The position numbers and the translations under genes were made by a program. Source: Sulfuricurvum sp. (GTDB lineage: Bacteria; Campylobacterota; Campylobacteria; Campylobacterales; Sulfurimonadaceae). From it: a stretch of 32,250 nucleotides of DNA. The stretch lies in the NCBI GenBank assembly GCA_030696285.1, contig JAUYSQ010000080.1, positions 1 through 32,250 on the forward strand, in the 5' to 3' direction. The notes beneath the pieces were generated by a model that saw nothing but the letters and a program-made list of their open reading frames with translations, did no database searches and was not told the origin of the DNA. This document shows, one piece after another, positions 3,957 to 25,062 of the stretch (position 1 is the stretch's first letter; each line of letters starts with the position of its first letter).

Positions 3957-3981
3957 TGTATATCTCCTTGATAATGATTGG

Positions 3982-4002: not shown

Positions 4003-4051
4003 AAAGTTTCTATTGTGTATCATTTTAATTTGTTTTTATCAACTAAGATTT

Positions 4052-8185: not shown

Positions 8186-9025
8186 ATGGGTTTCAGAATT
8201 AACACAAATATCGGTGCGATGAACGCACATATGTATTCGACAGGTAATAACGTTGGGCTTGACAAAAGTCTTGCGAGTTTGAGCTCAGGGCTTCGTATCA
8301 ACAAAGCGGCTGATGATGCGGCAGGTCTTTCTATTGCCAATAAGCTTTCTGCTCAATCCCAAGGTCTTGGTCAAGCGATCCGTAACTCGAATGACGGTAT
8401 CGGTTTGATTCAAACGGCTGATGGTGCTCTCCAAGAGTACGGCGATATTTTGAAACGTGTTCGTACGCTTGCAACACAAGCAGCGAATGATACACAAGAT
8501 ACTGCATCACGCGGATATATTGCACAAGAGATTACGGCGTTGATGGCGGAAGCAGATGATATTGCAACTAAGACAAAGTTTAATGGTGTAGCAATTTTGA
8601 ATGGAGCCGGCGGGGGTGCAGCAGACGGTACATTTACATTCCATACGGGTGCTTATTCTGGTGATACTCAATCCGTAGCTATCGGATCTGCACAAACGGC
8701 TGTGCTGGTTGGTACTGCCGCTACTTATGGGGTAACAACTCAAGCAAGTGCTGAAAATGCTATTACAACAATGGACGCAGGTATTGCGGCAGTTGATGCT
8801 AAGCGTGCTACTTTGGGTGCTGCTCAAAACAAACTTGAATCAAACGTTCGTAATATTTCCGTTACTCAAGTAAATATTGCAGCGGCAGAGTCACAAATTC
8901 GTGATGTCGATTTCGCAGCAGAATCTGCAAACTTTGCAAAACATAACATCCTAGCTCAATCAGGCTCTTATGCTATGTCTCAAGCAAATGCGGTTCAGCA
9001 GAACGTTCTTCGCTTGCTACAATAG
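8186..9025 (+). CDS. flaA: Flagellin, compact form
   Basis: 279 residues, the filament subunit, exported unfolded by the flagellar type III system. The N-terminal D0/D1 helices (GFRINTNIGAMNAH, LASLSSGLRINKAADDAAGL) and C-terminal D1/D0 helices (ESQIRDVDFAAESANFAK, ending QQNVLRLLQ) are well conserved. Only about 55 residues, roughly 140-195, rich in Thr, Ser, Ala and Gly, lie between them. There is no D2/D3 domain, unlike the 570-plus residue Campylobacter jejuni flagellins. The Ser/Thr-rich centre is the likely acceptor for the sugar made by the neighbouring operon. The sigma-28 promoter and a good ribosome site (AAAGGATTTATC) are upstream, and a strong terminator follows. No cysteines. Whether other flagellin genes exist elsewhere cannot be told from here. 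Confidence 0.96.
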   Translation: MGFRINTNIGAMNAHMYSTGNNVGLDKSLASLSSGLRINKAADDAAGLSIANKLSAQSQGLGQAIRNSNDGIGLIQTADGALQEYGDILKRVRTLATQAANDTQDTASRGYIAQEITALMAEADDIATKTKFNGVAILNGAGGGAADGTFTFHTGAYSGDTQSVAIGSAQTAVLVGTAATYGVTTQASAENAITTMDAGIAAVDAKRATLGAAQNKLESNVRNISVTQVNIAAAESQIRDVDFAAESANFAKHNILAQSGSYAMSQANAVQQNVLRLLQ

Positions 9026-9095: not shown

Positions 9096-12000
9096 TTAAA
9101 TGTTTTGAACTTTTTGTAGCCCTGTCATATACAAATATAAAATATCGAGTAGATGAGTACAGAGCATGGTTTTGATGTTTTTTGCGTATGTGTCTTTGTT
9201 GTTTAAAATTTTAGTATTAGTATTAAAGAAGTTGAAAATAAACGGCGATATGAATTTAAGATACTCTTGATAGACAAGGGCTATATCATAACCTGAGTTT
9301 GTTTGTTGAACGCAAAGTTGCTTGATAATGAGAATAAATGATTCTAAAAACTCTTTATGCGTTGTAACCAAACTGCTTTGCCATATTTTTAGAGTATTTT
9401 CAATACTTTTTGCATTTTTAATTCTTTCTTGAATCTCGTCAATTTCATTAGGAGAGAGGTTAGAAGAACTATTGGTGTTGAATTCCATAAACAATTTTTT
9501 ATAGAGCATTTGTTTATTGATAGTTTCAAAATCATTTGTACAAACAGTGGTTATATTGGTTGGTGTTGTGTTTTTAAACATTGCTCCATCATTTAGATTA
9601 TAGACTTGTTGATTGTTTTGTTTAAACCCGGTTGAGACAGTATTTATAACATCAATAGATATGGCAAAGTCCGGAGTGGTATAGACTGTTTTTTCAAAAT
9701 TTCCATCAGTGGTAATAGCGGTATCTTTAAAGGTGATCGTATCTATCTCTTTTGCGTTTTCTGAGATATTTAATTTTCGTGAATCGATATGTTCATCCGA
9801 ATGGGTTTTACCTGTTTTAGGATCAAGAGCCAAATCGAGTCCTAATAAATAAAGTTCCGATACTCCTAGGGCTATTAATAAAAGATAGCTGGTAGAACCG
9901 ACACAAAAGGCAGAAAGATTGCCAAAATCTTTTTTATAACTGGTTCCATTTTCAAAAAAGAAAACATTTTCTTTTTTCAAAGTATTTACTATTAATTGGG
10001 GTGTTCTTGCGGAAATCAAAAAGAGGCTCTCTTTGAAAAAGGAAATATCATTGAGTTTGTCAAAAAGTAGTGTACTTTCCGTAAACCCATCAATATGAGT
10101 GACTATATCAGGCTTTATCGCTTCTTTTTCTAAAATCCCCAAAACAGCAGAGACAGCAACGATAATAAACTTCTGATGATTCTTTTTCAACCACTGTATA
10201 TTTTTTTGTAAAGACGGTCCCGCGGCTAATAAGAGAACAGGGCTTTTCCCAAGAGAGTCTTGCCTATAATTTTTGAGTATATTTAGAAACTTAAATTCTT
10301 GCTGCAGGTACTCTAATGGTCTTAAGTATTGTTCTAAAATAGAATTGTAAAAAAATAGATTGTGGGATTGTGATGCGATTTGTACATGAAAATCATGAAT
10401 TTTTTCTTCGCTATGACTGAGCATTTGAAAATATTTCAGGTAATGATTGCGGTAAAAATCACGATCTAAAAAATAGGCAGCTTTATTTGAAAATTGAGAT
10501 TTTGTATCAAAAACCGAGAAAACAAGTTTACTCTTTTCGGATAGTTTGTGATAAGGAGTTATAAATAAAGAGAGTCTAAAAAGTTCTAAATCATCTTCTA
10601 TAATCAAGTACACTTTGGCAGATATTTTTGCATCGATTTGTACGATATGGGTTCCTAGTCCGACACCAAAAAATATAAATTTTTCTATATTTTGCATAAG
10701 GCTTGGATGCTCTTGATTGTTTTGTATGTAGTTTAAAATATCGGCATATCCGCTAAGGTTGTTTTCATAAAGGGTTTCTTTTTGGTATTTAACTACATCT
10801 TCATCTGAAATGATAATTTTTCTAAAGGTTTCAAATACGCTCGAGTCCTGTGAAAAATCAACACTTCGTGCAGCTAATGTTGCATAATCATCGCTATTTG
10901 AACCGTATAACTGATGATTCGAGGAGAGCTCAACCACATCAAAATAGCCATTTTGGTAAGTCAAATCATACTTATTCTCGTAAAGACCTTGTTCAAGAGC
11001 TGAATCTAAGCTAACGAGTTTTTCATAAATATCGGGATGATTTTTTTTGAAGTAGGCAAGGTTTTGTAAAAATGTTTCTCTGGCAATTTCTTCTACGGAT
11101 ACGCTCTTCTCTACAGATTCTGTTTTCCCACAAAACACAGTGTTATTGAATTCAAAAGTGTAGCTCAATGTATCGCAATTGTAAGAGATTTTTTCAATGA
11201 TTTTTCTTTTACTTGGTCTTAGTGTATCTATCGTGGAAAGTTCTCGTTTGATAAGCTCTTTTATCGACATATTCATGCCATGATTCAGATTCTTGATAAA
11301 CTTCCCATCTATAGAACTCTCATCGTCTATGATGTGTAAGGTTGCATCAAAGCCAAGATAGTTGAGTGTTTCATACAATAGTTGTTTGTCTTTTAGGGGG
11401 GCAAGAGTATCAAAGGCTGAATGATACGATATATATTTCGTTTTTTGAATAGAGGTTTGAGATAATTTTACCAAATGCTCGCTGTCCGCAATATCTCTTA
11501 TCCGGAATCTGTCATTGGAAAAAAAACAAGGGGACGTTTTATCTAAATTCCAATATGTTTTTGTATAGCCATAGGTTTTCATATGCTTTTTATAGCTTAC
11601 GATGTATTCAGGAATACCATCTCCGCACTCTCTGCCGACGATGTAGTGAGAGGGCGGTTTTATATACGATGAGTTGTCTATGACCAAATCAATGCTGTTT
11701 GGTGCAAATTTAGCACATAAATGAGCAATATAGCCACCATGACTGCTTCCGACCAAGGTAATAGAGTAATTTTTTTTGAAGTCTAAAGAGCTTTTCTGAA
11801 GAAATTCCAAAACATTTAGATGGTCAAGTGCCTGAAGAACCCCAAAATTTTGATACTCATCGTTTGCGGGAATGATTGTCATGGGAATCATAATTTTTGC
11901 ATCTGGTGTGATGTGATTGTCATTTTTTAGTTCTTGAATTTTATCATCCAGTTTTTCGAGGGTATTATCAAAACTATCGTCACTCATGACAATATTGTAG

Positions 12001-12320
12001 TGTTGGAAATATTTTTCTATAAAAGCTTTATCGGCTGTATCCGGATAAAAAACAGCACCATTATTGGGTCTTGCGTAAAAGCAATGATAAAAAACGCTGA
12101 CGCATACAACATCAAAGGTATTCGCTGTATAAATCTGTAAATTGTTAATATAATCGTTAGAGGAATCTTCTCCAAAACCAGTGATAAGAAATACAATTCC
12201 TTTGAGTTTTGTTGATTTTTTGTAGGAATATCTAAAATTTAGCAGATTTTTTCGTTCTATTTGCAGTTCGAAGTCATAGCAAGATTGTATAGCACTGTCG
12301 ACGGTAATTATTTTATTCAT
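9096..12320 (-). CDS. DUF2920 domain fused to a full Maf flagellin-glycosylation protein
   Basis: 1074 residues. The N-terminal part (about 1-400) is a DUF2920 alpha/beta-hydrolase-like domain, the family called 617 in Campylobacter jejuni flagellin modification loci. It shows ITGFGED near residue 50, the nucleophile elbow GSSHGG (Ser193), Asp304 in SAFDTLAP and His347 in LNHGMN, a plausible catalytic triad. From about residue 408 a complete Maf protein follows (MAF_flag10/DUF115), with ALEQGLYENKY, LLLAAGPSLQKN (about 697-707), PDIVTHIDG (738-745) and LYLLGLDLALD. Its 666 residues align end to end with the 673-residue Maf encoded just upstream. Maf proteins are established or strongly implicated as transferases of nonulosonic acids to flagellin. 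The DUF2920 role is unknown; an esterase, deacylase or acyl-transfer role on the sugar is inference. The start overlaps the upstream gene's stop by 8 bases, which suggests coupled translation. Confidence 0.85.
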   Translation of the reverse strand: MNKIITVDSAIQSCYDFELQIERKNLLNFRYSYKKSTKLKGIVFLITGFGEDSSNDYINNLQIYTANTFDVVCVSVFYHCFYARPNNGAVFYPDTADKAFIEKYFQHYNIVMSDDSFDNTLEKLDDKIQELKNDNHITPDAKIMIPMTIIPANDEYQNFGVLQALDHLNVLEFLQKSSLDFKKNYSITLVGSSHGGYIAHLCAKFAPNSIDLVIDNSSYIKPPSHYIVGRECGDGIPEYIVSYKKHMKTYGYTKTYWNLDKTSPCFFSNDRFRIRDIADSEHLVKLSQTSIQKTKYISYHSAFDTLAPLKDKQLLYETLNYLGFDATLHIIDDESSIDGKFIKNLNHGMNMSIKELIKRELSTIDTLRPSKRKIIEKISYNCDTLSYTFEFNNTVFCGKTESVEKSVSVEEIARETFLQNLAYFKKNHPDIYEKLVSLDSALEQGLYENKYDLTYQNGYFDVVELSSNHQLYGSNSDDYATLAARSVDFSQDSSVFETFRKIIISDEDVVKYQKETLYENNLSGYADILNYIQNNQEHPSLMQNIEKFIFFGVGLGTHIVQIDAKISAKVYLIIEDDLELFRLSLFITPYHKLSEKSKLVFSVFDTKSQFSNKAAYFLDRDFYRNHYLKYFQMLSHSEEKIHDFHVQIASQSHNLFFYNSILEQYLRPLEYLQQEFKFLNILKNYRQDSLGKSPVLLLAAGPSLQKNIQWLKKNHQKFIIVAVSAVLGILEKEAIKPDIVTHIDGFTESTLLFDKLNDISFFKESLFLISARTPQLIVNTLKKENVFFFENGTSYKKDFGNLSAFCVGSTSYLLLIALGVSELYLLGLDLALDPKTGKTHSDEHIDSRKLNISENAKEIDTITFKDTAITTDGNFEKTVYTTPDFAISIDVINTVSTGFKQNNQQVYNLNDGAMFKNTTPTNITTVCTNDFETINKQMLYKKLFMEFNTNSSSNLSPNEIDEIQERIKNAKSIENTLKIWQSSLVTTHKEFLESFILIIKQLCVQQTNSGYDIALVYQEYLKFISPFIFNFFNTNTKILNNKDTYAKNIKTMLCTHLLDILYLYMTGLQKVQNI

Positions 12321-14334
12321 TAACGGCTATCGCCTTTTCGTTTACAGAGGATAGCTCTAAAAACCTTTGTAATTCTTCCTCGTAATAGTTGACTATGTTA
12401 GAAAGTTCAGATATTAAGATTTTATCTATTTGCTTGATATGTTTTTTAGGATTAATAAGCTCTTTTGTGTTAAACATATCAAAAATTAAAGGGGTCACGT
12501 ACTGAAAATACGAATACAGTATGGCAGATACATTAACTGATTCCCGTTCTTTGTGTTTTATCAGATCTGAAATAAGACCCAAGAGGTGATAGTAATAGCT
12601 ATTAACATTCTGGTGGATAATTTTTTTATGTTCAGCCAGACGATTTTTAATCCAGCTAATATGGTCTAAGCGTTTATACATAGACTGAATATCTGACTTT
12701 GATAGCGCAAGGGCGGAGTGTTGTGAAAGTGATTGATAAAGTAAAGAGTAAAGAGAAGCTCGGTCTATGGTTTTTAGAGACTGTGTATTAATGTCTTGGA
12801 TAATCGTTGGTTTACTTTCTTGCAGCATTGCCCCATCACTGAGATTGTATATATTTTGGGATGCAGATTTGAGGTGAGGTATCAAACCATAGAGTGCTTG
12901 AATAGAAGCATCCAAGAGTGATGTGGTATGTACGTTGTGGCGTAGATTTCCTTTCACTAAAAAGGTTGTGGTTTCAACATTCATGGTTTGAGAAAGAACA
13001 GTGGTATTGATGTCGATGGTTTGAATAAAATCATGATGATCGGCGTGAGTTTTTCCAGTAATTTGATCGAGAGCCAAATCCAATCCCAATAAATAAAGCT
13101 CAGCTACGTTAAAGATAAGCATTAACGCCAATGTTGTTGTTCCGACGCAAGGGGTGGAGAGTGAGCCAAAGTTTTCAAAATAGTGAGTAGCATCTTCAAA
13201 ATAAAAAATTCGTTCTTTATCAATCATCTCTCTTAGTGATTTGGGAGCGTATGGACCCAGAATAAATAAAGTATCTTTGAGATATTTATCTAGAGGGATG
13301 CCCTCAAAATGAAGCATACTCATCTCAGTTCCATCAATGTGAGTGACAATATCAGGGACAATATCTTCGGCGTACAGCTTTTTTAAGGTTGCCGAAAGAG
13401 CGACAATGATGAATTTGTCTTGGTTATTCTTGACCCACGCAATATTTTTTTGTAGAGAAGGCCCTGCCGCTAAAAGCAATACGGGTTTATTTATAAAAGG
13501 AGAATCTTCCCACTCTGAAGCAATATTCAGAACGTTAAATCCATGATTAATATATTCCAGAGGGCGGAGAAATTTATCCATCGTAAAATCATAGGTAAAG
13601 ATTAAAAAGGACTGAATAGAAAGTGCACTTTGAATAAGTTTTATTTTATCAATATCATGACTTGGCAGGTGATAGTATTTCAAATAACGGTTATTCATGA
13701 AGGTGCCATGAAGAAAATTGTTGACGATTAGAGCAAATTTATCCGCACGATCTGCTACAGAAAAATGTAAAGTACTGTTTTTGCCAAGCAGCCTATAATC
13801 TGTTGTAAAAAGCGATAGTCTAAACAGTTCAAGATTATCTTCGATAATGAGATATTCTTCGGAGTGTATTGCATTATTAATTTGCGTTAAATGCAAGCCT
13901 AATCCAGTGCCTATGAAAATAAATTTTTCTATTTTTATCATATTCATCGTGCTATTAACGTGAGCGTTAACATAGCGCATCAGGGGCACAAGTTCTTTTA
14001 GTACATCTGTTTGTGTAAAATCCACCACTCTTTTATCGGTATTGTAAATCCGAATGCCTTCGAAAAGATGATTGTCTTTTTTAGTGTTAATCGTATTGGC
14101 TATTTTAATTGCGTGCTCTTGAGAGTTTTCATTGTAAAAAAAGTTATTAGATGTTTTTTCAAGAACATCAAAGTAGCCATCTTTGTATTCAAGAATATAT
14201 TTTGATTCGTATACACCTTGTTCCAGAGCAGTATTGAGAAGTGAAAGCCGCTTAAAAAGGTCGGGATGATTATCGGATAGATACGTCAGATTGCTACTGT
14301 ATGTTTCAATAGCTTTTCGCTCGATGGCTTCCAT
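12313..14334 (-). CDS. Maf-type flagellin glycosyltransferase (DUF115)
   Basis: 673 residues, cytoplasmic. The N-terminal region resembles the Maf half of the downstream fusion (ALEQGVYESKY, EYKDGYFDVLE). FIFIGTGLGLHLTQ and YLIIEDNLELFRLSLF follow. The central DUF115/MAF_flag10 domain has LLLAAGPSLQKN (about 287-297), PDIVTHIDG and CVGTT, then LYLLGLDLALD and NLSDGAML. The C-terminus is helical and probably binds flagellin. Maf proteins transfer pseudaminic or legionaminic acid from CMP donors to Ser/Thr of flagellin before export. The location after legF and near flaA fits this role. CGGAGC precedes the ATG. An 81-base gap from legF contains a possible internal promoter, so the two Maf genes may be transcribed separately as well. 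It is a tandem duplicate of the Maf part of the downstream gene. Confidence 0.9.
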   Translation of the reverse strand: MEAIERKAIETYSSNLTYLSDNHPDLFKRLSLLNTALEQGVYESKYILEYKDGYFDVLEKTSNNFFYNENSQEHAIKIANTINTKKDNHLFEGIRIYNTDKRVVDFTQTDVLKELVPLMRYVNAHVNSTMNMIKIEKFIFIGTGLGLHLTQINNAIHSEEYLIIEDNLELFRLSLFTTDYRLLGKNSTLHFSVADRADKFALIVNNFLHGTFMNNRYLKYYHLPSHDIDKIKLIQSALSIQSFLIFTYDFTMDKFLRPLEYINHGFNVLNIASEWEDSPFINKPVLLLAAGPSLQKNIAWVKNNQDKFIIVALSATLKKLYAEDIVPDIVTHIDGTEMSMLHFEGIPLDKYLKDTLFILGPYAPKSLREMIDKERIFYFEDATHYFENFGSLSTPCVGTTTLALMLIFNVAELYLLGLDLALDQITGKTHADHHDFIQTIDINTTVLSQTMNVETTTFLVKGNLRHNVHTTSLLDASIQALYGLIPHLKSASQNIYNLSDGAMLQESKPTIIQDINTQSLKTIDRASLYSLLYQSLSQHSALALSKSDIQSMYKRLDHISWIKNRLAEHKKIIHQNVNSYYYHLLGLISDLIKHKERESVNVSAILYSYFQYVTPLIFDMFNTKELINPKKHIKQIDKILISELSNIVNYYEEELQRFLELSSVNEKAIAVNE

Positions 14335-14415: not shown

Positions 14416-15105
14416 TTATTTTTCCTCTGTTAATAGCAAATTAGCCAACTTAAAATCAATCTCTTCATCAATGTCCACGGAGCTTCTTTTGTCCATCTTA
14501 TAAGCAAAAATACTATCATTGATAAAAAATGTTTTCTCTTCTAAAAGTGTGGCTGTGTTACAAATATAAATAGCACCATTCACCCTATAATATTTTTCAA
14601 GATCTTGACTGCGTTGATTTTTGATTTCATCTCTTAGAAACCCGTCCATATTCCCATCTTTTGATAGGGTATTGCTCCAGAGTGGACTATGATCCATTTC
14701 ACACACAGAGACAATGGCCTCTGCATCTTTTGCCATTAACAGTTCAATGGCGTCATCAATGTGATTGTTATCTCTTAATGGGCTTGTAGGCTGAAGTAAA
14801 ATAATATAGTCGTATTGTGAAAATTTTTCTATGGCGTGTTTGATAGCATCAAATGTTGTGGCACTATCACTGGCTAACTCCATTGGTCTGTGTATTGTAT
14901 CTGCCTTATAATGTTTAGAGATAGTTAATATGTCGTCATCATCACTTGAAACCACTGTTTTGTCTATATATTTACTTTTTAGTCCTGCTTCTATGCTCCA
15001 AGCTATTAAAGGCTTTCCCGCTAAATCGAGTACATTTTTTCTGGGCAGTCTTTTACTCCCTCCTCGAGCGGGTATGATGGCGAGGAATGTTTTATTTTTA
15101 AACAT
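14416..15105 (-). CDS. legF: CMP-legionaminic acid synthetase (cytidylyltransferase), LegF/PtmB type
   Basis: 229 residues. It activates the nonulosonic acid with CTP to give the CMP-sugar donor. The nucleotide-binding signature is PARGGSKRLPRKN (12-24), followed by LAGKPLIAWSIE, LQPTSPLRDN and RVNGAIYI. SSVDIDEEIDF near the end is typical of the NeuA/LegF/PtmB family. Its position next to LegX/PtmE and after LegI points to legionaminic rather than sialic acid, because the operon has LegB and LegC and no simple ManNAc route. PseF was considered, but no pseB, pseC, pseG or pseI homologue is present. The ATG shares one base with the stop codon of the upstream gene (TAATG), so translation is probably coupled. 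Confidence 0.88.
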   Translation of the reverse strand: MFKNKTFLAIIPARGGSKRLPRKNVLDLAGKPLIAWSIEAGLKSKYIDKTVVSSDDDDILTISKHYKADTIHRPMELASDSATTFDAIKHAIEKFSQYDYIILLQPTSPLRDNNHIDDAIELLMAKDAEAIVSVCEMDHSPLWSNTLSKDGNMDGFLRDEIKNQRSQDLEKYYRVNGAIYICNTATLLEEKTFFINDSIFAYKMDKRSSVDIDEEIDFKLANLLLTEEK

Positions 15106-16151
15106 TAAAATATCTTATCATATTCGTTATTGGCTTGCTCGTAATCATTGATTCGACCAATATCAAGCCAGTATTCATGTAAAGCAAAAGAAAGGACAGG
15201 TTCTCTCTGGCTAATCAGATGTTCAAATAGTGCTGGCATATCATAAAACTTCCCTGTAGGGATGTTTTGGATTACTTTTGGATCAAACATATAGATTCCG
15301 GCACTAACAAAAAATTTATGTAAAGGCTTCTCTACGATCGATAAAATTTTGTTCTCTTCAATGTTTACGACACCGTAAGGAACTTGAAAATCATATTCAC
15401 GAACACACATTGTAGCTTGCGCATGATTCGCGAGGTGATAGTCATGTAAATGTTCAAAATTAACATTGGTAAGCAAGTCTCCGTTCATTACAAAGAAGGG
15501 TTCAGACGGAATTTCGGGAAGTAAGCTCAACGCTCCAGCCGTGCCCATCCTCTGTTCTTCCAGTATATAGCTGATATTGACTCCAAACATACTTCCATCG
15601 CCAAAATAATTTTGAATTATTTGTGATTTATAGTTAACACACATGATGATATTGCAATAGCCATATTCGGCGAATTTTTCAACAATAGTTTGCAAAATTG
15701 GCTTATTTCCCACGTGAAGCATCGGCTTTGGAGTATCATCCGTTAATGGCCGTAATCGTGTTCCAAGTCCTCCAACCATTAAAATAACTTTATTGGATTT
15801 ATTTTTCCGATTCACAAGTTCATCTAAATTTTTTAGACCAACCAATACGCCATTGTTATCTACGAGTGGAATTTGAAGAATTTTTTTACTAGTCATGGTT
15901 CTGAGAATGGCTTCTCGTGAATCATTAATATTTGCAATAGTGGGATTCTTAAAATAGATTTTTTCAATAGAATCGGAAAGATTACATCCTTTTATCAATC
16001 CTCGTCGAATATCGCCATCATTTAATGTCCCGATAAGCTTGTCAGATTCATCAACAATGAGCGCAATTTGCTTAGATCCTTTATCAATAACCAGTAATGC
16101 TTCTCGTATTGTTATTGTTGACTTTACGGTAATGTCTTTTAAGTTTGTCAT
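15105..16151 (-). CDS. ptmE: CBS-domain nucleotidyltransferase, LegX/PtmE type
   Basis: 348 residues from the ATG at 16151; a TTG two codons earlier is less likely. Residues 1-115 are a pair of CBS domains, probably ligand-sensing. From about residue 122 a sugar-phosphate nucleotidyltransferase follows, with GGLGTRLRPLT (127-137), KPMLHVGNKPIL and VMNGDLL. Campylobacter jejuni PtmE/LegX makes the GDP-linked glucosamine precursor that distinguishes its legionaminic acid route from UDP-based ones. The presence of this gene suggests that the downstream steps use GDP-sugars. That is inference from the family, since base specificity cannot be read from the sequence. The start shares one base with the ptmG stop (TAATG), and GGAAAG provides the ribosome site. 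The companion genes ptmF and ptmA are not in this cluster. Confidence 0.87.
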   Translation of the reverse strand: MTNLKDITVKSTITIREALLVIDKGSKQIALIVDESDKLIGTLNDGDIRRGLIKGCNLSDSIEKIYFKNPTIANINDSREAILRTMTSKKILQIPLVDNNGVLVGLKNLDELVNRKNKSNKVILMVGGLGTRLRPLTDDTPKPMLHVGNKPILQTIVEKFAEYGYCNIIMCVNYKSQIIQNYFGDGSMFGVNISYILEEQRMGTAGALSLLPEIPSEPFFVMNGDLLTNVNFEHLHDYHLANHAQATMCVREYDFQVPYGVVNIEENKILSIVEKPLHKFFVSAGIYMFDPKVIQNIPTGKFYDMPALFEHLISQREPVLSFALHEYWLDIGRINDYEQANNEYDKIF

Positions 16152-17323
16152 TAGCAAGTTTCTTTCCAGATAGGATATTTAAGCTCCCACTTACCATACT
16201 TCTGTTCCCATAGATGTGGAGATCTCCAGCTATCAATAACTTCATAGCAATGTTCTTCTGTGATATTACAATATTTTAAAAATGTTTTAAAATGAAGCGC
16301 TGGAAATTCTCCATCAAATCTTTTTACTAATCTAATTCCTTCATCTCTAGTAATATGCCCATCTCTTATTTCATGGGCAGTATCGGATGTTGTTCTTCCA
16401 AGTCCAAATTTTATATAAGCCAAATAATAATGAAATCCATCAATTTGATCATCAAAAGATGCATATTTTGAATAAGTACCTTCATTTCTAGAAAATCTAG
16501 GTGTAAATCCGGTGTGTTCAACCGCATGATAATAGAGTTCTTGAGGTACCCATTGTTTATAATATCCAAAAAAATGAATCTCTAATCCAAGCTTATCAAG
16601 CAAATCATCCTTTGGTGCCATATATGGAATAATATCTTTTGATTGAATCCCGTATTGAAGAAGATCTTCCGGGGCTAAACCAGAAAAGTAATGTTCCTTG
16701 TGATCCGTTTTAAAGTCTCTATTTGGTTTGAAAGCATTTTTCATATTGCCGCCATATTCAACCTCACCATTTTCGCCATACATGATTAAAGAAACGTTGT
16801 GTTTTAGTGCCATCTGCATTGGATAATTTGTTTGCCCATATATAAAAGGCTGAAATGGATCACCTAAAACTTCAAACGATATTTTCGTCAATCGTCGATG
16901 GATGTTTCCGTTTGGTGTTCCCAAAATATTGTCAAATCCACCTACATGAATGTGTTCTTGAAAATTATTAAATCCGTCTTGTGTCCAAAGATGAGGAGAC
17001 CATGTTACTGTCAAAGGATTCATATTGTATTTATACTTCAATTGATATGCGACAAATGCGCTGTCTTTTCCTCCGCTTGACGGTACTATAACATCATATG
17101 AACCATCATTTTTTCTATATCTATCACATAAGTCTTGCAACTCTTTATCTCTTAACTCCCAATCTATTTTTGTTTTTTTGAATTCAGCGTATTGACAGGC
17201 TGCGCAAACTCCATGTTCATCAAACTCGATTCTGGGTCTTTGATTTGATATTGTACATTTTGAACAATATTTGATATTACTAGGAAGTTTATATCTATTT
17301 TGAGTATCTTTATAAGGTATCAT
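16151..17323 (-). CDS. ptmG: N-acetyl sugar amidotransferase, PtmG/PseA/WbpG family
   Basis: 390 residues. Four cysteines, C20/C23 and C40/C43 (YCSKC, CAAC), form a probable zinc knuckle. The PP-loop ATP-pyrophosphatase motif SGGKDS is at residues 83-88. YGENGEVEYGG and GRTTSDTAHEIRDG are typical of the family. Relatives turn an N-acetyl group of a nucleotide-activated or free sugar into an acetimidoyl (acetamidino) group: PseA acts on pseudaminic acid, PtmG on legionaminic acid, and WbpG on the Pseudomonas O-antigen uronate. WbpG takes ammonia from partner HisH and HisF paralogues, and here those genes stand immediately upstream. The gene is noticeably AT-rich compared with the upstream leg genes, and the 9-base gap to hisH breaks the run of overlapping junctions, so it may have a separate origin. 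Confidence 0.9.
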   Translation of the reverse strand: MIPYKDTQNRYKLPSNIKYCSKCTISNQRPRIEFDEHGVCAACQYAEFKKTKIDWELRDKELQDLCDRYRKNDGSYDVIVPSSGGKDSAFVAYQLKYKYNMNPLTVTWSPHLWTQDGFNNFQEHIHVGGFDNILGTPNGNIHRRLTKISFEVLGDPFQPFIYGQTNYPMQMALKHNVSLIMYGENGEVEYGGNMKNAFKPNRDFKTDHKEHYFSGLAPEDLLQYGIQSKDIIPYMAPKDDLLDKLGLEIHFFGYYKQWVPQELYYHAVEHTGFTPRFSRNEGTYSKYASFDDQIDGFHYYLAYIKFGLGRTTSDTAHEIRDGHITRDEGIRLVKRFDGEFPALHFKTFLKYCNITEEHCYEVIDSWRSPHLWEQKYGKWELKYPIWKETC

Positions 17324-17332
17324 GATCGCGTC

Positions 17333-17935
17333 CTATAAATTTATGAAATTTTTAAATAGATTAATACCAGCCATTCGGCTTTTTTCAGGATGAAACTGTA
17401 CTCCATAAATATTTTCTTTTTGAATGGCCGAAACAAATAAATGTCCTGCATACTCTGTTGTTGATAATATATCATGAAAATTTACAACTTCATACGAGTG
17501 CATAAAGTAAAACTCTTCCTTTTCCAAACCGCGCAAAAGGGCATTTTGTTTTATGATCTCTATCGTGTTAAAGCCCATATGGGGGATTTTTGCATCCACT
17601 AGCATCGGTTTTACTTCGGCATTGATAAGACCTAACCCTTTGGTTTTTCCATACTCAAATCCAAGAGAGGAGAGGAGTTGCATACCCAAGCATATTCCCA
17701 GTGTCGGTTTTGTGGCGGCGGCAATTTTGAGGGCTTCAAGCAAACCGCTATTTTGCAGCTCTTGCATGGCATCTTTAAAACTTCCGACTCCCGGAATGAC
17801 AATTTTTGTGACACTCTCCAGTTCGCTTGCTTCGTTGATGATTTTAACACTGCCTCCGGCTTTTTCAATCGCTTTTTTGATACTATGAATATTTCCGGCG
17901 ATTCCATAGTTGATCAGTCCGATAACCGTGCTCAT
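17333..17935 (-). CDS. hisH: HisH-like glutamine amidotransferase subunit
   Basis: 200 residues, class I glutaminase. Nucleophile C82 is in GICLGMQ, and H182 and E184 are in VQFHPEKS. The oxyanion-region PGVGSF and the HisH signature IPHMGFN are also present. The glutaminase triad is therefore complete. Its start overlaps the hisF-like stop by 4 bases. Beside the PP-loop amidotransferase and inside a nonulosonic acid operon, it most likely feeds ammonia through the HisF-like partner for acetimidoyl formation, as in the Pseudomonas WbpG/HisH2/HisF2 system. It could instead be the only HisH of the organism; no other his genes are nearby, which makes that less likely. The last 60 or so codons are more AT-rich than the first part. 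Confidence 0.88.
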   Translation of the reverse strand: MSTVIGLINYGIAGNIHSIKKAIEKAGGSVKIINEASELESVTKIVIPGVGSFKDAMQELQNSGLLEALKIAAATKPTLGICLGMQLLSSLGFEYGKTKGLGLINAEVKPMLVDAKIPHMGFNTIEIIKQNALLRGLEKEEFYFMHSYEVVNFHDILSTTEYAGHLFVSAIQKENIYGVQFHPEKSRMAGINLFKNFINL

Positions 17936-18687
17936 TTTGACACCTCAATCTCATTGTTTCTCAAATATTCTTTTATATCGCTAATTGTGTATTTGTTATA
18001 GTGCAGAAGAGAAGCTATCGCAACACCGCTAGGAGCAGCATACTCTATAAGCTCTTTTATATCTTCGAGTTTTCCGGCACCGCTTGCTACAACGACGGGA
18101 ATATCGACACACTCCACCACCGCTTTTGCCAGTTCCAAATCAAACCCTCTTTGTCTGCCATCGGTATCGACACATTGAAGCAGTATTTCTCCCGCACCTC
18201 TTTGCTCTATCTCTTTCGCCCATTTCAAAACATTTTTGCCGGATTGAATACGACCGCAGTCAGTGTAGCATTCATACCAGTTGTCCCACTTTTTGGCTTC
18301 TATATTGACAACAACGGCTTGATTTCCAAAAATTTGTGCGGCTTGGTTGATGATATCGGGATTCTCTTGCAACGCATGTGTGTTGATGATAACCTTATCG
18401 GCTCCGGCGTGGAAAAGTTTGGAAAAATCCTCAATGGTTTTCACACCGCCACCAACTCCAAACGGGATAAATAGCTCATTTGCTGTTGACTCTATTTCGC
18501 TAAAAAGAATTTCTCTTTGGTAAAGTGAAGCAACGATATCGATATACATCACTTCATCGGCACCTTGCTCATAGTATTTTTTAGCAAGTTCTGCCGGCAA
18601 TCCCATTGTCCGCAAACCTTCAAAATGGACAGGTTTGACTACATAAGGGGGTTTTACATCAAGCTTTGCAATTATTCTTGTTTTCAC
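17932..18687 (-). CDS. hisF: HisF-like subunit with altered cyclase site
   Basis: 251 residues with the HisF (beta-alpha)8 barrel. The general base D10 (AKLDVK) and D176 (VDTDG) match Thermotoga D11 and D176. The catalytic acid D130 of true cyclases (AIDAK) is Glu here (NIEAK, residue 130). The loop after D10 reads KPPYVV in place of KDGRVV, and the phosphate loop SGGAG is shortened to SGAG. These changes argue that it no longer makes imidazole glycerol phosphate and serves as an ammonia conduit or docking subunit for the neighbouring amidotransferase. It overlaps legG and hisH by 4 bases on each side. Retention of full histidine-pathway activity cannot be ruled out from sequence alone. Confidence 0.87.
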   Translation of the reverse strand: MKTRIIAKLDVKPPYVVKPVHFEGLRTMGLPAELAKKYYEQGADEVMYIDIVASLYQREILFSEIESTANELFIPFGVGGGVKTIEDFSKLFHAGADKVIINTHALQENPDIINQAAQIFGNQAVVVNIEAKKWDNWYECYTDCGRIQSGKNVLKWAKEIEQRGAGEILLQCVDTDGRQRGFDLELAKAVVECVDIPVVVASGAGKLEDIKELIEYAAPSGVAIASLLHYNKYTISDIKEYLRNNEIEVSK

Positions 18688-19853
18688 ACATTTCCTTTAC
18701 CGTGAATGTCATAAAATGATTTCTTGAGGAGAGAGTCAAGATTTGTTTGTTTTAAAACGTCAATGATTTTTTGACTTGCCATCCCATCCCCGTAAGGATT
18801 TTGAACCTCTTTCAAACTATTTTGAAAATCGGATGAATAAAGCTGAGAAAAAGCGAGAGACAAACTCGCGTGATTTGGTTCGCAATCGATCACGCTGGGG
18901 GCTTTTAGTCTCCCTTTTTGACGATCTCCGATATTGACAGTCCCGATGTGAAAGCTTGGGGCTTCGAGCAAACCACTCGAACTGTTTCCCACAATTGCAT
19001 CCATAAATTGTAAACCGCTTAAATAACGTAACGAGCCCAATGAGGCAAACTGAACCGATTTAACGGCGTTTTGTGTGACATAGTCATCGATCATTTTGTT
19101 GATAATACGGCCGTTTGTATCGCTGTTGGCTTTGGTAAAAATAATATGGGTGTTTTCCAGAGAATCGAGAGACGCTAACAGCTCGCCAAACTGTTTTTCC
19201 GCCGTGGCATGTTCAAGCGTTACAGGATGAAAGGTTACTAATAGATTCCTCATTCCCAATGTAAAATGGATACTCTCCTCAAAAGCCTCTTGACTCATAA
19301 GTTCTAAGCGTTTAATGTTTTCGATTCCCATTCCGCCGACCGTGTAAACGCGCGAAGGATGTTCCCCGAGCTGAATGACACGATTGCGGTACACTGTAGC
19401 AGCCGTAAAATGCAAATGGCTCATTTTGGTAATGCAATGGCGCATAGCCTCATCGTAGGCGCCCTCCGTCGTTTCACCTCCATGCAAATGGGCGATGGGG
19501 ATACGGGCAATCATCGCAGCACTTACGGCACTGAATATTTCGTATCGATCCCCTAAAACGACGACAATATCGGGTTTTAGTTCTTCAAAACTCTCCGCAA
19601 ACGAGATTTGTGCCAATCCCATTGATTTGGAAATGCCGATTTCTGTGTCGCTGGAGAGGAGCATTTCAATTTTTTTAGTAATGACGAACTCTTTTTCGAT
19701 CTCTTTGTAGGTTAATCCAAACTCGGGTGAAAGGTGCATCCCCGTCAGCACGAGCTGAAGTTCCAAATCGGGATCTTTTTGTATCCCTTTCATTAGCCAA
19801 TACAGTAGCCCATACTCCGCGCGTGTTCCGCTGATCACACAGATTTTTCTCAT
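18684..19853 (-). CDS. legG: Hydrolysing NDP-sugar 2-epimerase, LegG/NeuC family
   Basis: 389 residues of the UDP-GlcNAc 2-epimerase fold. Motifs include GTRAEYG (9-15), GDRYE, HLHGGE with GAYDE after it, TFHPVT and VGNSSSG near residue 300. In the legionaminic acid pathway it removes the nucleotide and inverts C2 of the diacetamido sugar to give 2,4-diacetamido-2,4,6-trideoxymannose. NeuC of sialic acid synthesis is the close alternative, but LegB and LegC in the same operon favour LegG. It overlaps legI upstream and the hisF-like gene downstream by 4 bases each, so the genes are translationally coupled. Confidence 0.92.
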   Translation of the reverse strand: MRKICVISGTRAEYGLLYWLMKGIQKDPDLELQLVLTGMHLSPEFGLTYKEIEKEFVITKKIEMLLSSDTEIGISKSMGLAQISFAESFEELKPDIVVVLGDRYEIFSAVSAAMIARIPIAHLHGGETTEGAYDEAMRHCITKMSHLHFTAATVYRNRVIQLGEHPSRVYTVGGMGIENIKRLELMSQEAFEESIHFTLGMRNLLVTFHPVTLEHATAEKQFGELLASLDSLENTHIIFTKANSDTNGRIINKMIDDYVTQNAVKSVQFASLGSLRYLSGLQFMDAIVGNSSSGLLEAPSFHIGTVNIGDRQKGRLKAPSVIDCEPNHASLSLAFSQLYSSDFQNSLKEVQNPYGDGMASQKIIDVLKQTNLDSLLKKSFYDIHGKGNV

Positions 19854-20845
19854 ATCAACTCATCCTCTTGATATTCTTTAAGGGCAATCGTACCCATTAT
19901 CTCATCAAATCGCATCGGATTGATCCCATTTCCTGGACGTTTAACGGTGATATTGTCTTCGGTGAATATTTCCCCTTTGGCAATGGTGCACGCGGCAACG
20001 ATACTTTTACGGGCGACAGCCATATTTTTACGTTCGCTTGGAGTCGGTTTTTTGACCCCGTCTCCCAATGCTTTTTCGATGGTGCGTATCGCGTTAACCA
20101 TAGCGATAAGTTCATCCGGCTCTAAGCTCGCTTTGTGATCAGGCCCTTCCATGCTGCAATCGAGAGTAAAATGTTTTTCGATCACGCAAGCCCCCATCGC
20201 CACAGCCGCAATCGGCACATAGATACCTTTGGTATGGTCAGAATAGCCTACGCGTACTCCAAACGTCTTCTTGATGGTTTCCATCGCGCGTAGATTAACC
20301 TCGTCTATCGGACATGGATATTCAGTGGTTGCATGCAAAATTGTGATATTCTCTTTGGGGGTGCCTGATGAGACTAAAACAGTGAGAGCATCTTTTATTT
20401 CGGCTAAATTAGCCATTCCAGTCGAGAGAATAATCTCTTTTTGTAGCCTTCCGATATGACGCAAATAGGGGAGATTCGTGATCTCTCCACTGGGAATTTT
20501 AAAAATAGTCATTCCCAAATCCTTCAGCAGTTCAATGCTGTCATGATCAAAAGGGGTGGAGAGAAAAAGGATGTTTTTGCCATTGCAGTAGGAGAGAAGT
20601 TCATGATGCGCACTCTCATCCAGTTCCAGTTTTTTAATCATCTCATACTGAGATTCGCCCGCCTCCGTTGTCTCTTTTTGGTATTGGGCTTTTTGGGCAT
20701 TTTTAGAGACCAGCTTGTCCGCTCTAAAGGTTTGAAATTTGACCGCATCAGCACCCGCTTCTGACGCCGCATCGATCAGTTTTTTAGCCAACTGCAGCGA
20801 ACCGTTGTGATTGACACCTGCTTCAGCGATGACAAAAACGCTCAT
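19850..20845 (-). CDS. legI: Legionaminic acid synthase, LegI/NeuB family
   Basis: 331 residues from the ATG at 20845. An in-frame extension 46 codons upstream only covers the end of legH and has no family similarity. The enzyme condenses the 6-deoxy mannose derivative with phosphoenolpyruvate to form the nine-carbon acid. The N-terminal NeuB barrel has IAEAGVNHNG, AVKFQTF, KIPSGEITNLP, GYSDHT and EKHFTLD. The C-terminal antifreeze-like SAF domain spans about residues 270-331 (IVAACTIAKGEIFTEDNITVKRP). Metal- and substrate-binding His residues in EKHFTL and SDHT are present. It overlaps legH and legG by 4 bases. Confidence 0.94.
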   Translation of the reverse strand: MSVFVIAEAGVNHNGSLQLAKKLIDAASEAGADAVKFQTFRADKLVSKNAQKAQYQKETTEAGESQYEMIKKLELDESAHHELLSYCNGKNILFLSTPFDHDSIELLKDLGMTIFKIPSGEITNLPYLRHIGRLQKEIILSTGMANLAEIKDALTVLVSSGTPKENITILHATTEYPCPIDEVNLRAMETIKKTFGVRVGYSDHTKGIYVPIAAVAMGACVIEKHFTLDCSMEGPDHKASLEPDELIAMVNAIRTIEKALGDGVKKPTPSERKNMAVARKSIVAACTIAKGEIFTEDNITVKRPGNGINPMRFDEIMGTIALKEYQEDELI

Positions 20846-21423
20846 GTAACGACACTCCCCGCTTTGATAAACGATTTTTCGGCAATAACCGCGTACTCTT
20901 TGGAGACGGCGTTGCTTCCAAAAAAGGTATTTGCCCTTACGACAGTGCCGCCATTTAGTATAGCTCCGGTGCTTATATGACAATTATCTTCAATAGTTAC
21001 ATCATGTTCGACGAGCGCTTTGGTATTGATGATACAGTTTTTGCCTATGGTCGCATTGGCATTGATCAGGACATCGTGCAAGATCACCGTCCCTTCTCCT
21101 ATGGAAGCATATTTCGAGAGGTAGGCTCGCGGAGAGATAATAGGGGGGAGAATAAATCCAATGGTTTGGAGCTGATTAAAAAGCTTTATTCGGACGTCGG
21201 GAGATTTTAGTTGACCTACAGAAATAACCGCGTATTTGTATCGTTGAAAAAGATCCTCCAGCTCATCATCACACCCCATGATTTCATAGCCTAGCACTTT
21301 TTGCCCTATACGCTCTTTTTGGTCAATAATCCCCGCTATCGAGTATTTTCCTTCCTGCTCAATGACATCGATTACCGATTTACAATGCCCTCCGCCGCCG
21401 ATTAAGAGAATTTTCGATCTCAT
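20842..21423 (-). CDS. legH: NeuD/PglD-type sugar acetyltransferase (LegH role)
   Basis: 193 residues. The N-terminal Rossmann-like segment has IGGGGHCKSVID (8-19). A left-handed beta helix of hexapeptide repeats starts near residue 95 (ISPRAYLSKYASIGEG, ATIGKNCIINTKALVEHDVTIE split across the helix). His140 in VEHD matches the catalytic base of PglD-type enzymes. In the pathway it would transfer acetyl from acetyl-CoA to the 4-amino group made by LegC. NeuD-like O-acetyltransferases have the same fold, so side-chain O-acetylation is the alternative. It overlaps its neighbours on both sides by 4 bases. Confidence 0.88.
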   Translation of the reverse strand: MRSKILLIGGGGHCKSVIDVIEQEGKYSIAGIIDQKERIGQKVLGYEIMGCDDELEDLFQRYKYAVISVGQLKSPDVRIKLFNQLQTIGFILPPIISPRAYLSKYASIGEGTVILHDVLINANATIGKNCIINTKALVEHDVTIEDNCHISTGAILNGGTVVRANTFFGSNAVSKEYAVIAEKSFIKAGSVVT

Positions 21424-22559
21424 AATCTGACTCCGCTGGGGAGATTAACGACTCTCTCCTCGAGCCAAAGGGCATTGGTTAAATCTTCGCATTGGCAATC
21501 TTTAAAGAGTTCAAGTTTGTTCATGAGTGCCCAAACGGGTCGTGTCATAACGCTATTATCATTCGTACATTGTAAAAATTCATCTCTTTGGTTTTTGTCT
21601 TTCAAAATAACGGCATTGAGCCAATAATTCGATTGAGAATTTTTTGGCTCTTCTACAAACGCAATATCGTGAGAAGCAAAAAATTCTTGATACTCACCGC
21701 TCAGTTCTCTTTTATTTTTTAAAAAAACCTCGAGTTGCTCGAATTGAGCACACAGCAGTGCGGCATTGAGATTGGGAAGTCGGTAGTTATACGCGATCTC
21801 GTCATGGATATATTCCCATTTATGAGGAACTTTGGCCGTAGTCGTGAGATGTTTTGCTCGTAGAGCCAGCGTTTCATCGTCCGTAATAATGACTCCGCCT
21901 CCGCCTGAAGTGATAATCTTGTTACCGTTAAAACTGAATGTACCCAGTTTGCCAAACGTGCCGGTATGCTTGTTTTTATAGGTACTTCCGAGTGACTCTG
22001 CCGCATCTTCGACTAACGCGATATGCCATTTGTCGCACAGTTCTTTGATCTCATCGATACGGCAGGGATGACCGAACGTGTGCATCGGTACGCACGCTTT
22101 GATCGTTTTTAGGGTTGTCCGGTTGATGCATCTTCCCTCGGTGATAACACATTTTTGTTCTAAAAAGTGTTTAAGGGCATCAGGACTTAAACCCATCGTC
22201 TCCAAATCGACATCCAAAAAAATCGGTTTTGCCCCGATATAGCTGATGGCATTTGCCGTCGCGATAAACGTAAGGGGCTGCGTGATCACTTCATCATCAC
22301 GTGCTACTCCCGCCAAAATCAGAGAGATATGCAGGGCTGCTGTACCGTTGACCGTGGCTATGGCGTAGCGGCTTCCCGTGTATTCGGCAAATTCTTTTTC
22401 AAAGCGGTCGACATAGTGCCCAACGCTCGATACAAAACTACTGTCAATACACTCATTTACATAGATTTTTTCGTTACCGATAAAGAGTGGCTCATGCAAA
22501 CTTATCGTAGATTTATGAGGATAGAGGTTTTGTATGAAAGAGACAATATCGTTATACAT
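21420..22559 (-). CDS. legC: LegC-family PLP-dependent sugar aminotransferase
   Basis: 379 residues of the DegT/DnrJ/EryC1 family. The pyridoxal phosphate lysine is K214 in SFNGNKIITSGGGG. NGTAALHISL, TFIATANAI and VEDAAESLGS are diagnostic. It would aminate C4 of the 4-keto-6-deoxy GlcNAc nucleotide, with glutamate as donor. The N-terminus (SFIQNLYPHKSTISLHEP) is typical of the LegC branch and distinguishes it from PseC and PglE. It overlaps the end of legB by 8 bases and legH by 4. Confidence 0.93.
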   Translation of the reverse strand: MYNDIVSFIQNLYPHKSTISLHEPLFIGNEKIYVNECIDSSFVSSVGHYVDRFEKEFAEYTGSRYAIATVNGTAALHISLILAGVARDDEVITQPLTFIATANAISYIGAKPIFLDVDLETMGLSPDALKHFLEQKCVITEGRCINRTTLKTIKACVPMHTFGHPCRIDEIKELCDKWHIALVEDAAESLGSTYKNKHTGTFGKLGTFSFNGNKIITSGGGGVIITDDETLALRAKHLTTTAKVPHKWEYIHDEIAYNYRLPNLNAALLCAQFEQLEVFLKNKRELSGEYQEFFASHDIAFVEEPKNSQSNYWLNAVILKDKNQRDEFLQCTNDNSVMTRPVWALMNKLELFKDCQCEDLTNALWLEERVVNLPSGVRL

Positions 22560-23541
22560 TGTAAATATCAGCTTTATACTTTGTTAAATTTTCAGGGAGC
22601 ATGAACCATTCTATGGTTTGTCTTAATCCCTGCTCTATTGAGGTGGCGGATTTGAATCCTGTCAGTTTGTTAATAAGAGAATTGTCGCACCACAGTCTGA
22701 ATACCTCTGATTTATCAGGCCGAATCCGCTGTTCTTCGGTAATGAAGGTGACGTCGCTTTGCATGATTTTTTTGATTAAATTGAGAGTGTCTCCGATACT
22801 GATTTCGGTATTCGAACCGATATTGATGGTTTTACCGATGCTATCGTTGCATTGAGCGAGGGCAATAAAACCACGGCACGTATCTTCGACATAATTAAAA
22901 TCTCGTGTCGGTGAGACATCGCCTAGTTTGATCTCCTTTTTTCCGGCGGCAATTTGAGTAATGATGGTGGGTATAACCGCTCGGGCAGATTGTCGTGGAC
23001 CGTACGTGTTGAACGGGCGTGCAATGGTTACGGGAAGGTTAAACGCATTAAAATAACTCATAGCGATTGCATCGGCACCGATTTTGCTCGCACTGTAAGG
23101 ACTTTGAGCTTGGAGAGGATGATTCTCATCAATGGGTACATATTGCGCTGTTCCATAGACTTCTGAGGTGGACGTGTGTATAACTCTTTCGCAACCGTTT
23201 TCAAGAGCTCCCTGACAAATATTGAGAGTCCCTTTAATATTGGTGTCAACATAACTGTCGGGGGCAATGTAGGAATAAGGGATCGCAATTAATGCAGCCA
23301 AATGAAAAACAATATCAATGTCTTTGGTAATATGTTTGCAAAAATGGGGATCGCGGACATCCCCGCTTATAACTTCGATATTTTTTAGAGATTTAATATC
23401 CTCAATCCATCCCCATGAGTTAAAAGAGTTATACTGGGACAATGCTTTGACATAAGCACCTTCTTTGGCGAGCATTTCAGTTAAATGAGAACCGATAAAA
23501 CCGTCAGCTCCGGTAACTAGAATTTTTTTCCCATTAAACAT
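22552..23541 (-). CDS. legB: NAD-dependent 4,6-dehydratase LegB
   Basis: 329 residues, extended SDR family. The NAD-binding motif TGADGFIG is at 10-17, the Ser/Thr region TSTSEVYG at 123-130, and the YxxxK pair at Y149/K153 (PYSASK). RPFNTYGPRQ and DFNYVEDTCRGF are typical. It would convert NDP-GlcNAc to the 4-keto-6-deoxy sugar, the first committed step of legionaminic acid synthesis. I chose the ATG at 23541 because AGGA lies 6 bases upstream; an ATG six codons earlier lacks such a site. It is the first gene of the 12-gene cluster and diverges from fliD across a 135-base AT-rich gap. Confidence 0.93.
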   Translation of the reverse strand: MFNGKKILVTGADGFIGSHLTEMLAKEGAYVKALSQYNSFNSWGWIEDIKSLKNIEVISGDVRDPHFCKHITKDIDIVFHLAALIAIPYSYIAPDSYVDTNIKGTLNICQGALENGCERVIHTSTSEVYGTAQYVPIDENHPLQAQSPYSASKIGADAIAMSYFNAFNLPVTIARPFNTYGPRQSARAVIPTIITQIAAGKKEIKLGDVSPTRDFNYVEDTCRGFIALAQCNDSIGKTINIGSNTEISIGDTLNLIKKIMQSDVTFITEEQRIRPDKSEVFRLWCDNSLINKLTGFKSATSIEQGLRQTIEWFMLPENLTKYKADIYNV

Positions 23542-23609
23542 CGTATATCCTGTACCCATTAATTAAATAGATCAAAGCAAAAAAGATACCAAGATATTTA
23601 GAGATATCC

Positions 23610-23676: not shown

Positions 23677-25062
23677 ATGGCAGGTGCTGTAAGTTCACTG
23701 GGTGTTGGTTCTAGTATTTTGACGCAAAGTGTTTTAGATCAATTGCGTAAAGCAGATGAAGCGTCACGCATTACGCCTCTAGATCTAAAAATCGCCGATA
23801 TGAAAGACAGAACCACTGCCATAGGTAAAATTGATGGCTGGATGAGTGATCTTAGTAGCGCAGCGAGTGCGATGGCATCTAAAACTCTCTATACTGAGCG
23901 CTCTGCTGCGGTCACTGGCACTGCGGTGAGTGTTACAGCGGATGCGAATACGGATATTCAGTCATTCTCGCTTCAAGTAATTTCTTTGGCAACCAAAGAG
24001 GTGAATGAATCTGGGCTATATACTACAAAAACAGATCCGATTGCTACGGCTGCAGGGACAATGAACCTCAATATCGGCGGGACTGATTTTACAATCAATT
24101 ATGACGGAACTACCACACTCGATGATTTGAAAAATGAGATCAACAAGGTAGCCGGGACAAAAGTAAATGCCACTGTAATACAGCTTGCAACGGGTGATTA
24201 TCGTCTTTTTATGAGTGCTGTGGACAGTGGTGATGCCCAAACAATGACGTTGAGCGATACAAGCGGATTTATGAGTGGAACGCAACTAGCGAGTGGAGTT
24301 GGTGGCATGACTACCATCCAAGAGGGGGCAAACGCCTCTTTTAAGTTCAACAATCAGCTCATTTCGCGCGCCAGTAACAAAATCTCTGATTTGGTGAGCG
24401 GATTAACGATCACTCTGGAGAAAGCGGGAGAAACATCGACGGTTGAGGTTACCCAAAATCGTGACAATATTGTGAGTAAACTTGAAGATTTTGTGACGAA
24501 GTATAATACAGCGTACAGTGAAATAGCTAAAATGACCCATTCGAGTCAAGACAGCAAGACCATGGGAATCTTTAGCTCTGATAGTACCATCAAGGGTATG
24601 CAGCGTGAGATTCAAGATATGCTAACCACCTTGGGTGGTACACATTCACTCTTTAGTTACGGGTTTGATCTGGACAAAACGGGGAAGCTTTCGTTTGATA
24701 AAACTGTCTTTACTACCAAAATGGATGAGAGTTCATCGAATGTCGAAGCGGTTTTCGCGGGAGGTACTTTTACCAATACGGATACTACGACCGAGACGCT
24801 GACCGGGTTTTTTACAGACTATAAAACAGGGATGGATTCCTATACTAAAACGAGCGGTTATTTGGATATGTTTTCTACAAATATGGGGGATCAGTTAAGC
24901 ATTTTGGAAGAACAAAAAACAAAAGCGACAGAACGTCTTGATAGTAAATATGAATTAATGTCTAAACAGTTTGCTGCCTATGATTCTATTATTAGTAAAA
25001 TCAACCAGCAGTCTTCATTTCTTACACAGATGATTAGTTCAGCGAATTCTACCGGGAATTGA
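23677..25062 (+). CDS. fliD: Flagellar filament cap protein FliD (HAP2)
   Basis: 461 residues. FliD forms the pentameric or similar cap that folds and inserts flagellin at the filament tip, and it is exported by the flagellar apparatus. The N-terminus (SSLGVGSSILTQSVLDQLRKADEA) and coiled-coil C-terminus (LDSKYELMSKQFAAYDSIISKINQQSSFLTQMI) are typical FliD_N and FliD_C ends, with heptads needed for capping. The middle is Thr/Ser/Gly-rich and lacks Cys. Length is moderate, shorter than the Campylobacter jejuni protein. AAAAAAGGAGAGACA precedes the ATG. Unusually, the flaG and fliS genes that often flank fliD in this phylum are absent: legB lies upstream and the SRP RNA gene downstream. Confidence 0.94.
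   Translation: MAGAVSSLGVGSSILTQSVLDQLRKADEASRITPLDLKIADMKDRTTAIGKIDGWMSDLSSAASAMASKTLYTERSAAVTGTAVSVTADANTDIQSFSLQVISLATKEVNESGLYTTKTDPIATAAGTMNLNIGGTDFTINYDGTTTLDDLKNEINKVAGTKVNATVIQLATGDYRLFMSAVDSGDAQTMTLSDTSGFMSGTQLASGVGGMTTIQEGANASFKFNNQLISRASNKISDLVSGLTITLEKAGETSTVEVTQNRDNIVSKLEDFVTKYNTAYSEIAKMTHSSQDSKTMGIFSSDSTIKGMQREIQDMLTTLGGTHSLFSYGFDLDKTGKLSFDKTVFTTKMDESSSNVEAVFAGGTFTNTDTTTETLTGFFTDYKTGMDSYTKTSGYLDMFSTNMGDQLSILEEQKTKATERLDSKYELMSKQFAAYDSIISKINQQSSFLTQMISSANSTGN

Follow-up and report, generated by a model that had tools for sequence, protein, structure and literature searches.

In the flagellar modification locus of Campylobacter, the DUF2920 genes rank with those that vary most, phase variation included, and we know of no member of the family with a known activity. 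What such a protein does, and on which substrate, is the question raised by a 32,250-nucleotide stretch of a Sulfuricurvum sp. genome (hereafter, the window), in which one gene joins a DUF2920 domain to a Maf flagellin glycosylation protein. The fusion gives a handle on DUF2920 function, since the system, from Sulfurimonas-type bacteria, is simple (two Mafs and one DUF2920, not many paralogues) and has a defined nucleophile, Ser193.

The fusion gene (9096..12320) encodes 1074 residues. The original prediction of a single frame here, with its length and residue numbers, stands when the DNA is read from 12320 downwards; the strand had to be corrected to minus, with the ATG at 12318-12320 and the stop at 9096-9098, and the plus strand across 9096-12320 is full of stops. 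Residues 11-393 (11142..12290, minus strand) match the DUF2920 family (Pfam PF11144) over positions 5-393 of the 400-position model, with an E-value of 4.5e-103 and 345.9 bits against a curated cut-off of 24.7, and a genome scan gave the same coordinates; the assignment of residues 1-400 to this family was thus borne out.

Residues ~406-1074 (9099..11105, minus strand) form the Maf part, as delimited by Pfam, AlphaFold2 and Foldseek. They contain a Maf_flag10_N domain (residues 417-596; E 4.3e-12, 46.4 bits versus a cut-off of 23.5), an MptE-like glycosyltransferase domain (669-832; E 4.6e-28, 98.6 bits versus 34.6) and, in the AlphaFold2 model, a helical C-terminal domain (936-1073). In addition, 58 of the 59 positions that are invariant among the unfused Mafs compared are kept, the sole change being L to I at 816. 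By these features the C-terminal part belongs to the Maf family and is complete, as had been proposed; judged from its locus and family, it would transfer nonulosonic acid to flagellin. Its best Foldseek match is 5mu5, the Maf of Magnetospirillum (E 4e-22), and it shares with the Maf flagellin glycosyltransferases (PseD/Maf, Cj1318 family; 5MU5) a three-domain build and the AAGPS and HIDG motifs. It differs from them by the added N-terminal hydrolase domain, and its relation to PseD is distant: against the PseD model (NCBIfam NF050051) it scores 45.3 bits, far below the cut-off of 670, which places it outside that family.

Modeled on its own with AlphaFold2, the DUF2920 domain adopts a canonical alpha/beta-hydrolase fold (pLDDT 90.2, pTM 0.90); for the whole chain the values were 88.9 and 0.62, and the arrangement of the domains is uncertain. 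Ser193, in the motif GSSHGG, sits after strand 5 at the elbow between strand 181-192 and helix 194-205, while Asp304 follows strand 295-301 (strand 7) and His347 follows strand 325-331 (strand 8). Nucleophile, acid and histidine thus occupy the places expected in the alpha/beta-hydrolase superfamily, and these three residues and the elbow are invariant in 61 of 61 full-length relatives; the triad is still invariant in a 31-sequence set that includes relatives outside the Campylobacterota. Model and conservation therefore both uphold the triad that had been picked out as plausible, and DUF2920 can be described as a predicted serine hydrolase. Further invariant positions include Y156, N158, K204, W257 and R275, which may be candidate substrate-binding residues.

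In structural comparison with VIA-align, an acylaminoacyl peptidase, prolyl peptidases and esterases reached Z scores of ~20 across ~235 residues (for 2hu8, Z 20.4 and rmsd 3.4 with 234 residues aligned), and Foldseek agreed on these neighbors. Serine esterases and acylaminoacyl peptidases such as 2hu8, 7v8w and 3pf8 have the same fold, triad order and nucleophile elbow, but identity is only 10-18% and a common substrate is not implied; the neighbors found in the PDB and among viral proteins share the common fold only and indicate no substrate. Peculiar to DUF2920 are two large insertions, one after strand 4 and one after strand 6, which form an extra subdomain in our model and also appear in the family description in section 2.5.10 of PMC11878206.

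The surroundings of the gene point to flagellar sugar. Directly upstream lies a second, plain Maf of 673 residues (12313..14334, minus strand) that overlaps the start of the fusion by 8 bases, and the two are likely co-translated. Behind it is a nonulosonic (legionaminic) acid operon (14416..23559, minus strand), assigned with NCBIfam and Pfam except for HisH and HisF, which were recognized by reading translations. Toward the fusion the gene order is LegB-LegC-LegH-LegI-LegG-HisF-HisH-WbuX-PtmE-LegF-Maf-fusion, in which LegI is NeuB, LegH is NeuD, LegG is NeuC, LegF is a CMP-synthase and WbuX is an N-acetyl sugar amidotransferase of the WbuX/PtmG type. NCBIfam scores exceed their cut-offs for LegB (514 versus 475 bits), LegC (559 versus 420), NeuB (530 versus 400), NeuC (470 versus 236) and NeuD (181 versus 161); the PtmE-like protein combines NTP_transferase and CBS domains and the CMP-synthase is a CTP_transf_3 protein (Pfam). 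The genes of the PtmE/GDP route to legionaminic acid (LegB, LegC, LegH, LegI, LegG, PtmE and LegF) are thus all present together and predict this sugar. Convergent with the fusion is a flagellin gene (8186..9025, plus strand), the presumed acceptor, identified from its translation and from the same neighbor in relatives, and beyond the operon lies the gene for the filament cap FliD (23677..25062, plus strand), recognized from translation and synteny.

Two minor features of the window concern annotation and neighboring genes. As listed, with a TTG start at 20983, the NeuB/LegI frame shares 142 bases (20842-20983) with NeuD; its true start is probably an internal ATG near residue 47, because the NCBIfam match starts at residue 49. 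Two adjoining OmpA-like outer-membrane paralogues, read from their translations, occupy 1572-2621 and 2832-4004 on the minus strand, one of them with extra calcium-binding-type repeats.

A draft of 295 contigs, such as the window genome, might be suspected of having merged two genes by sequencing error, which the original prediction had named as a condition that would overturn it. We therefore consider the survey of the window's family, order and phylum, in which relatives were recovered from genome contigs with an alignment query (a single-sequence query with the window DUF2920 gave no match). It found the same full fusion in three other assemblies: a 1073-residue protein in the Sulfurimonas-type MAG G273 (JAHJEG010000037), one of 1068 residues counted from the start codon in G300, a MAG titled Sulfurimonas sp. 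(DAIDMU010000120), and one in G107, from another family, that is spread over two contig ends, the first stopping within DUF2920 and the other starting shortly after and continuing into Maf. Compared with the window, their DUF2920 halves are 49-74% identical and their Maf halves 53-68%, and across all four fusions pairwise values are 48-74% and 52-68%; given this divergence they are independent records. Together with two related shorter fusions, they rule out an artefact of sequencing or assembly with near certainty. DUF2920-Maf combines two known families, each with its defining features kept, in what appears to be a new domain architecture, and shows that Maf can form part of multi-domain proteins. 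The passages that we found in the literature on DUF2920 describe no Maf fusion.

The loci of the four full fusions are alike in several respects. A second, plain Maf adjoins the fusion in all four, and in the window, G273 and G300 a flagellin gene lies beside the two (in G107 the contig ends). The sugar genes beside the fusions are either Leg-type or Pse-type, so the fusion is not tied to one sugar stereochemistry.

Does the fusion tie the two domains to one step, as had been predicted? Two further proteins consist of DUF2920 followed by the Maf N-domain alone, with the transferase domain absent: one of 601 residues in G247 and one of 598 residues in L091, from an Aliarcobacter-titled MAG. Both lie between LegI and LegG of a legionaminic operon; in G247 the same contig also encodes one complete Maf at another place. 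One branch of the DUF2920 tree (90/92; 88% of bootstrap trees) has all six fused domains, four from full fusions and two from N-domain fusions, on the same side, consistent with a single fusion from which the transferase part was later lost in two. The Maf tree groups the four fused Mafs (100/98) with three unfused ones, from G183, G202 and G221, in whose genomes the DUF2920 search found no member; DUF2920 was therefore lost from these sisters or never joined to them, and the idea that the Maf half strictly requires DUF2920 is rejected. In G151, G182, G175 and G165 an unfused DUF2920 gene adjoins Maf at a site flanked by flagellin and FliD, and in G318 and G153 it lies near Maf. The unfused sister Mafs, the two short fusions and the genomes with DUF2920 and NeuB in which Maf was not detected (see below) all speak against the one-step tie. 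The broader part of the prediction, a role at nonulosonic acid or flagellin, retains the support of the locus, of the hydrolase fold and triad, of the recurrent fusion and DUF2920-Maf neighbors, and of gene co-occurrence.

Within the window's family, NeuB was present in 13/13 genomes with DUF2920 versus 143/187 others (P 0.035, kinship ignored), and an MptE-like/Maf match in 13/13 versus 126/187 (P 0.007, kinship likewise ignored). This is weak evidence, because NeuB (156/200 genomes) and Maf (139/200) are common in the family anyway. A cross-lineage sample held 17 DUF2920 genome entries, one genome being entered twice (G056 = G605), and all but one of these entries have NeuB. The exception, Citrobacter sp. 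MGH106, had neither NeuB nor Maf by our searches, and its DUF2920 is split into two frames; it is probably a transferred, decaying gene. The split frames (L122:5887-7061) overlap; they are flanked by a sodium:solute symporter gene on one side and by iron-uptake genes (FTR1, M75, Dyp peroxidase) on the other. No Maf match was found in G056 or in a Phenylobacterium MAG, both of which have DUF2920 and NeuB. The steadier partner of DUF2920 is therefore the sugar, not Maf, and a strict dependence of DUF2920 on Maf is rejected as well.

The acetamidino synthase WbuX scored above its cut-off in all four full-fusion genomes versus 8 of the 37 genomes compared (P 0.005, a post hoc test that ignores kinship). 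It was absent from the 11 non-fusion DUF2920 genomes of the same comparison set, so that an association was seen for the full fusion only, not for DUF2920 as a family. The pattern weakly hints that the fused form may act on an amidinated sugar.

The Campylobacter jejuni 617 family agrees with the fusion in Pfam family, fold, invariant triad and maf/nonulosonic-acid neighborhood. PMC3068675 lists as its members Cj0617 (617), Cj1305, Cj1306, Cj1310 and Cj1342. In Campylobacter these genes stand alone, and several of them carry a poly-G tract, whereas the fused gene is joined to Maf and has no such tract. PMC11878206 terms the family Campylobacter-specific; Sulfurimonas-type genomes, a Methylococcaceae MAG, Citrobacter and a Phenylobacterium MAG also contain relatives. 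Published data on C. jejuni are only suggestive of a link between DUF2920 and flagellar sugar: flagellin variants of different mobility differ in the on/off state of Cj1305/Cj1306, with Cj1295 as a confounder (PMC3068675); in a set of 16,130 genomes, cj1305/cj1306 occur together with pse genes (PMC13130089); and DUF2920/maf content varies between strains with unknown glycan masses (PMC7099621).

The position of the tract deserves a remark of its own. In the Campylobacter DUF2920 genes of L111, L002 and L043, a G9 tract within the elbow (codons ~192-197) is exactly the three Gly codons before the catalytic Ser (GGGGGGGGG TCA/TCT, Gly-Gly-Gly-Ser), so that a frameshift by slippage would fall at the nucleophile itself. 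No G9 tract is present in the Sulfurimonas-type genes checked, whose elbow is encoded by other codons.

We take the fusion to be a bifunctional flagellin-modification protein in which a Maf transferase is combined with a DUF2920 enzyme acting on an acyl-type sugar substituent, a reading to which we give a probability of about one half. The C-terminal two thirds would transfer CMP-activated nonulosonic acid to Ser/Thr of cytoplasmic flagellin; Maf is known to modify flagellin before it leaves the cytoplasm (PMC4065374). The sugar would be a legionaminic-acid derivative, probably amidinated because WbuX, HisH and HisF are in the operon. DUF2920 would change an acyl-type substituent on this sugar through a Ser193 acyl-enzyme, by hydrolysis or by acyl transfer, its target being the CMP-sugar or, more likely, freshly glycosylated flagellin. 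The Maf module would hold it at flagellin, in particular through the N-domain, whose function is stated as unclear in PMC11339370; since G247 and L091 keep this domain without the transferase, the N-domain may itself be a useful tether. Most likely, the target of DUF2920 is nonulosonic acid or the conjugate of this sugar with flagellin, and the Maf module brings the domain to flagellin. More tentatively, a single chain might serve as a 'transfer-and-edit' glycosyltransferase that places nonulosonic acid on flagellin and also remodels the acyl or acetamidino group of the sugar. If true, this would supply a function for the whole 617/DUF2920 family, and the phase-variable Campylobacter members would switch acylation of the flagellar sugar on and off.

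Other readings share much of this evidence. DUF2920 might work on nonulosonic acid independently of Maf, on the CMP-sugar or on sugar destined for other glycans, with the fusion merely co-expressing or co-localizing neighbors. The unfused sister Mafs fit this, as do NeuB without detectable Maf in G056 and the Phenylobacterium MAG and the positions of DUF2920 directly after PseI in G056 and between LegI and LegG in G247 and L091; we nevertheless hold it to be unlikely, if the strongest of the rivals, given that both fusion architectures keep the Maf N-domain, which suggests that proximity to flagellin matters, and that several genomes place DUF2920 beside Maf at a flagellin/FliD locus. That the domain is optional to Maf, and that its insertions build an extra subdomain (in our model and in PMC11878206), would also suit a catalytically idle accessory or binding domain, a reused hydrolase fold that helps Maf to recognize flagellin or sugar. 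The invariance of triad and elbow, within and beyond the Campylobacterota, makes this improbable.

Several DUF2920 genes are far from sugar loci: in G059 the gene follows pta-ackA, in C. concisus it is beside an ABC transporter, and in G148 and G229 it is an orphan. These genes, like the closest Maf sisters that lack DUF2920, count against our preferred reading. They, and the acylaminoacyl and prolyl peptidases among the best structural neighbors, could be read as signs of a peptidase- or esterase-like action on the flagellin polypeptide or another non-sugar substrate. Esterases score nearly as high, however, the likeness is one of common fold at low identity, and DUF2920 is associated with nonulosonic-acid genes, so we regard such a substrate as more doubtful still.

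Our preferred reading, a Maf transferase joined to a sugar-modifying DUF2920, has a modular parallel in flagellin glycosylation. The extra module of FlmG of Caulobacter is a flagellin-binding TPR without an enzyme fold, and its transferase is of a different family from Maf. FlmG is a precedent for a flagellin glycosyltransferase made of separate modules (PMC7591256). Judging by the frames themselves, Maf has been extended repeatedly within the window's family. Mafs of 870-1210 residues with long C-terminal extensions occur in L166, L167, L168 and L170-L174 (G173, G187, G158, G238, G235, G223, G209 and G321) and also in L159 and L160; the extensions have no match to other Pfam families above cut-off. 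A single 1247-residue frame in G265 (L175:2248-5988), open at the contig end, holds two tandem Maf modules. Finally, at the end of a legionaminic operon, a frame of 5513 residues starts with a Maf comprising N-domain and transferase domain (L158:14510-19001; G049:C81 from about 231509).
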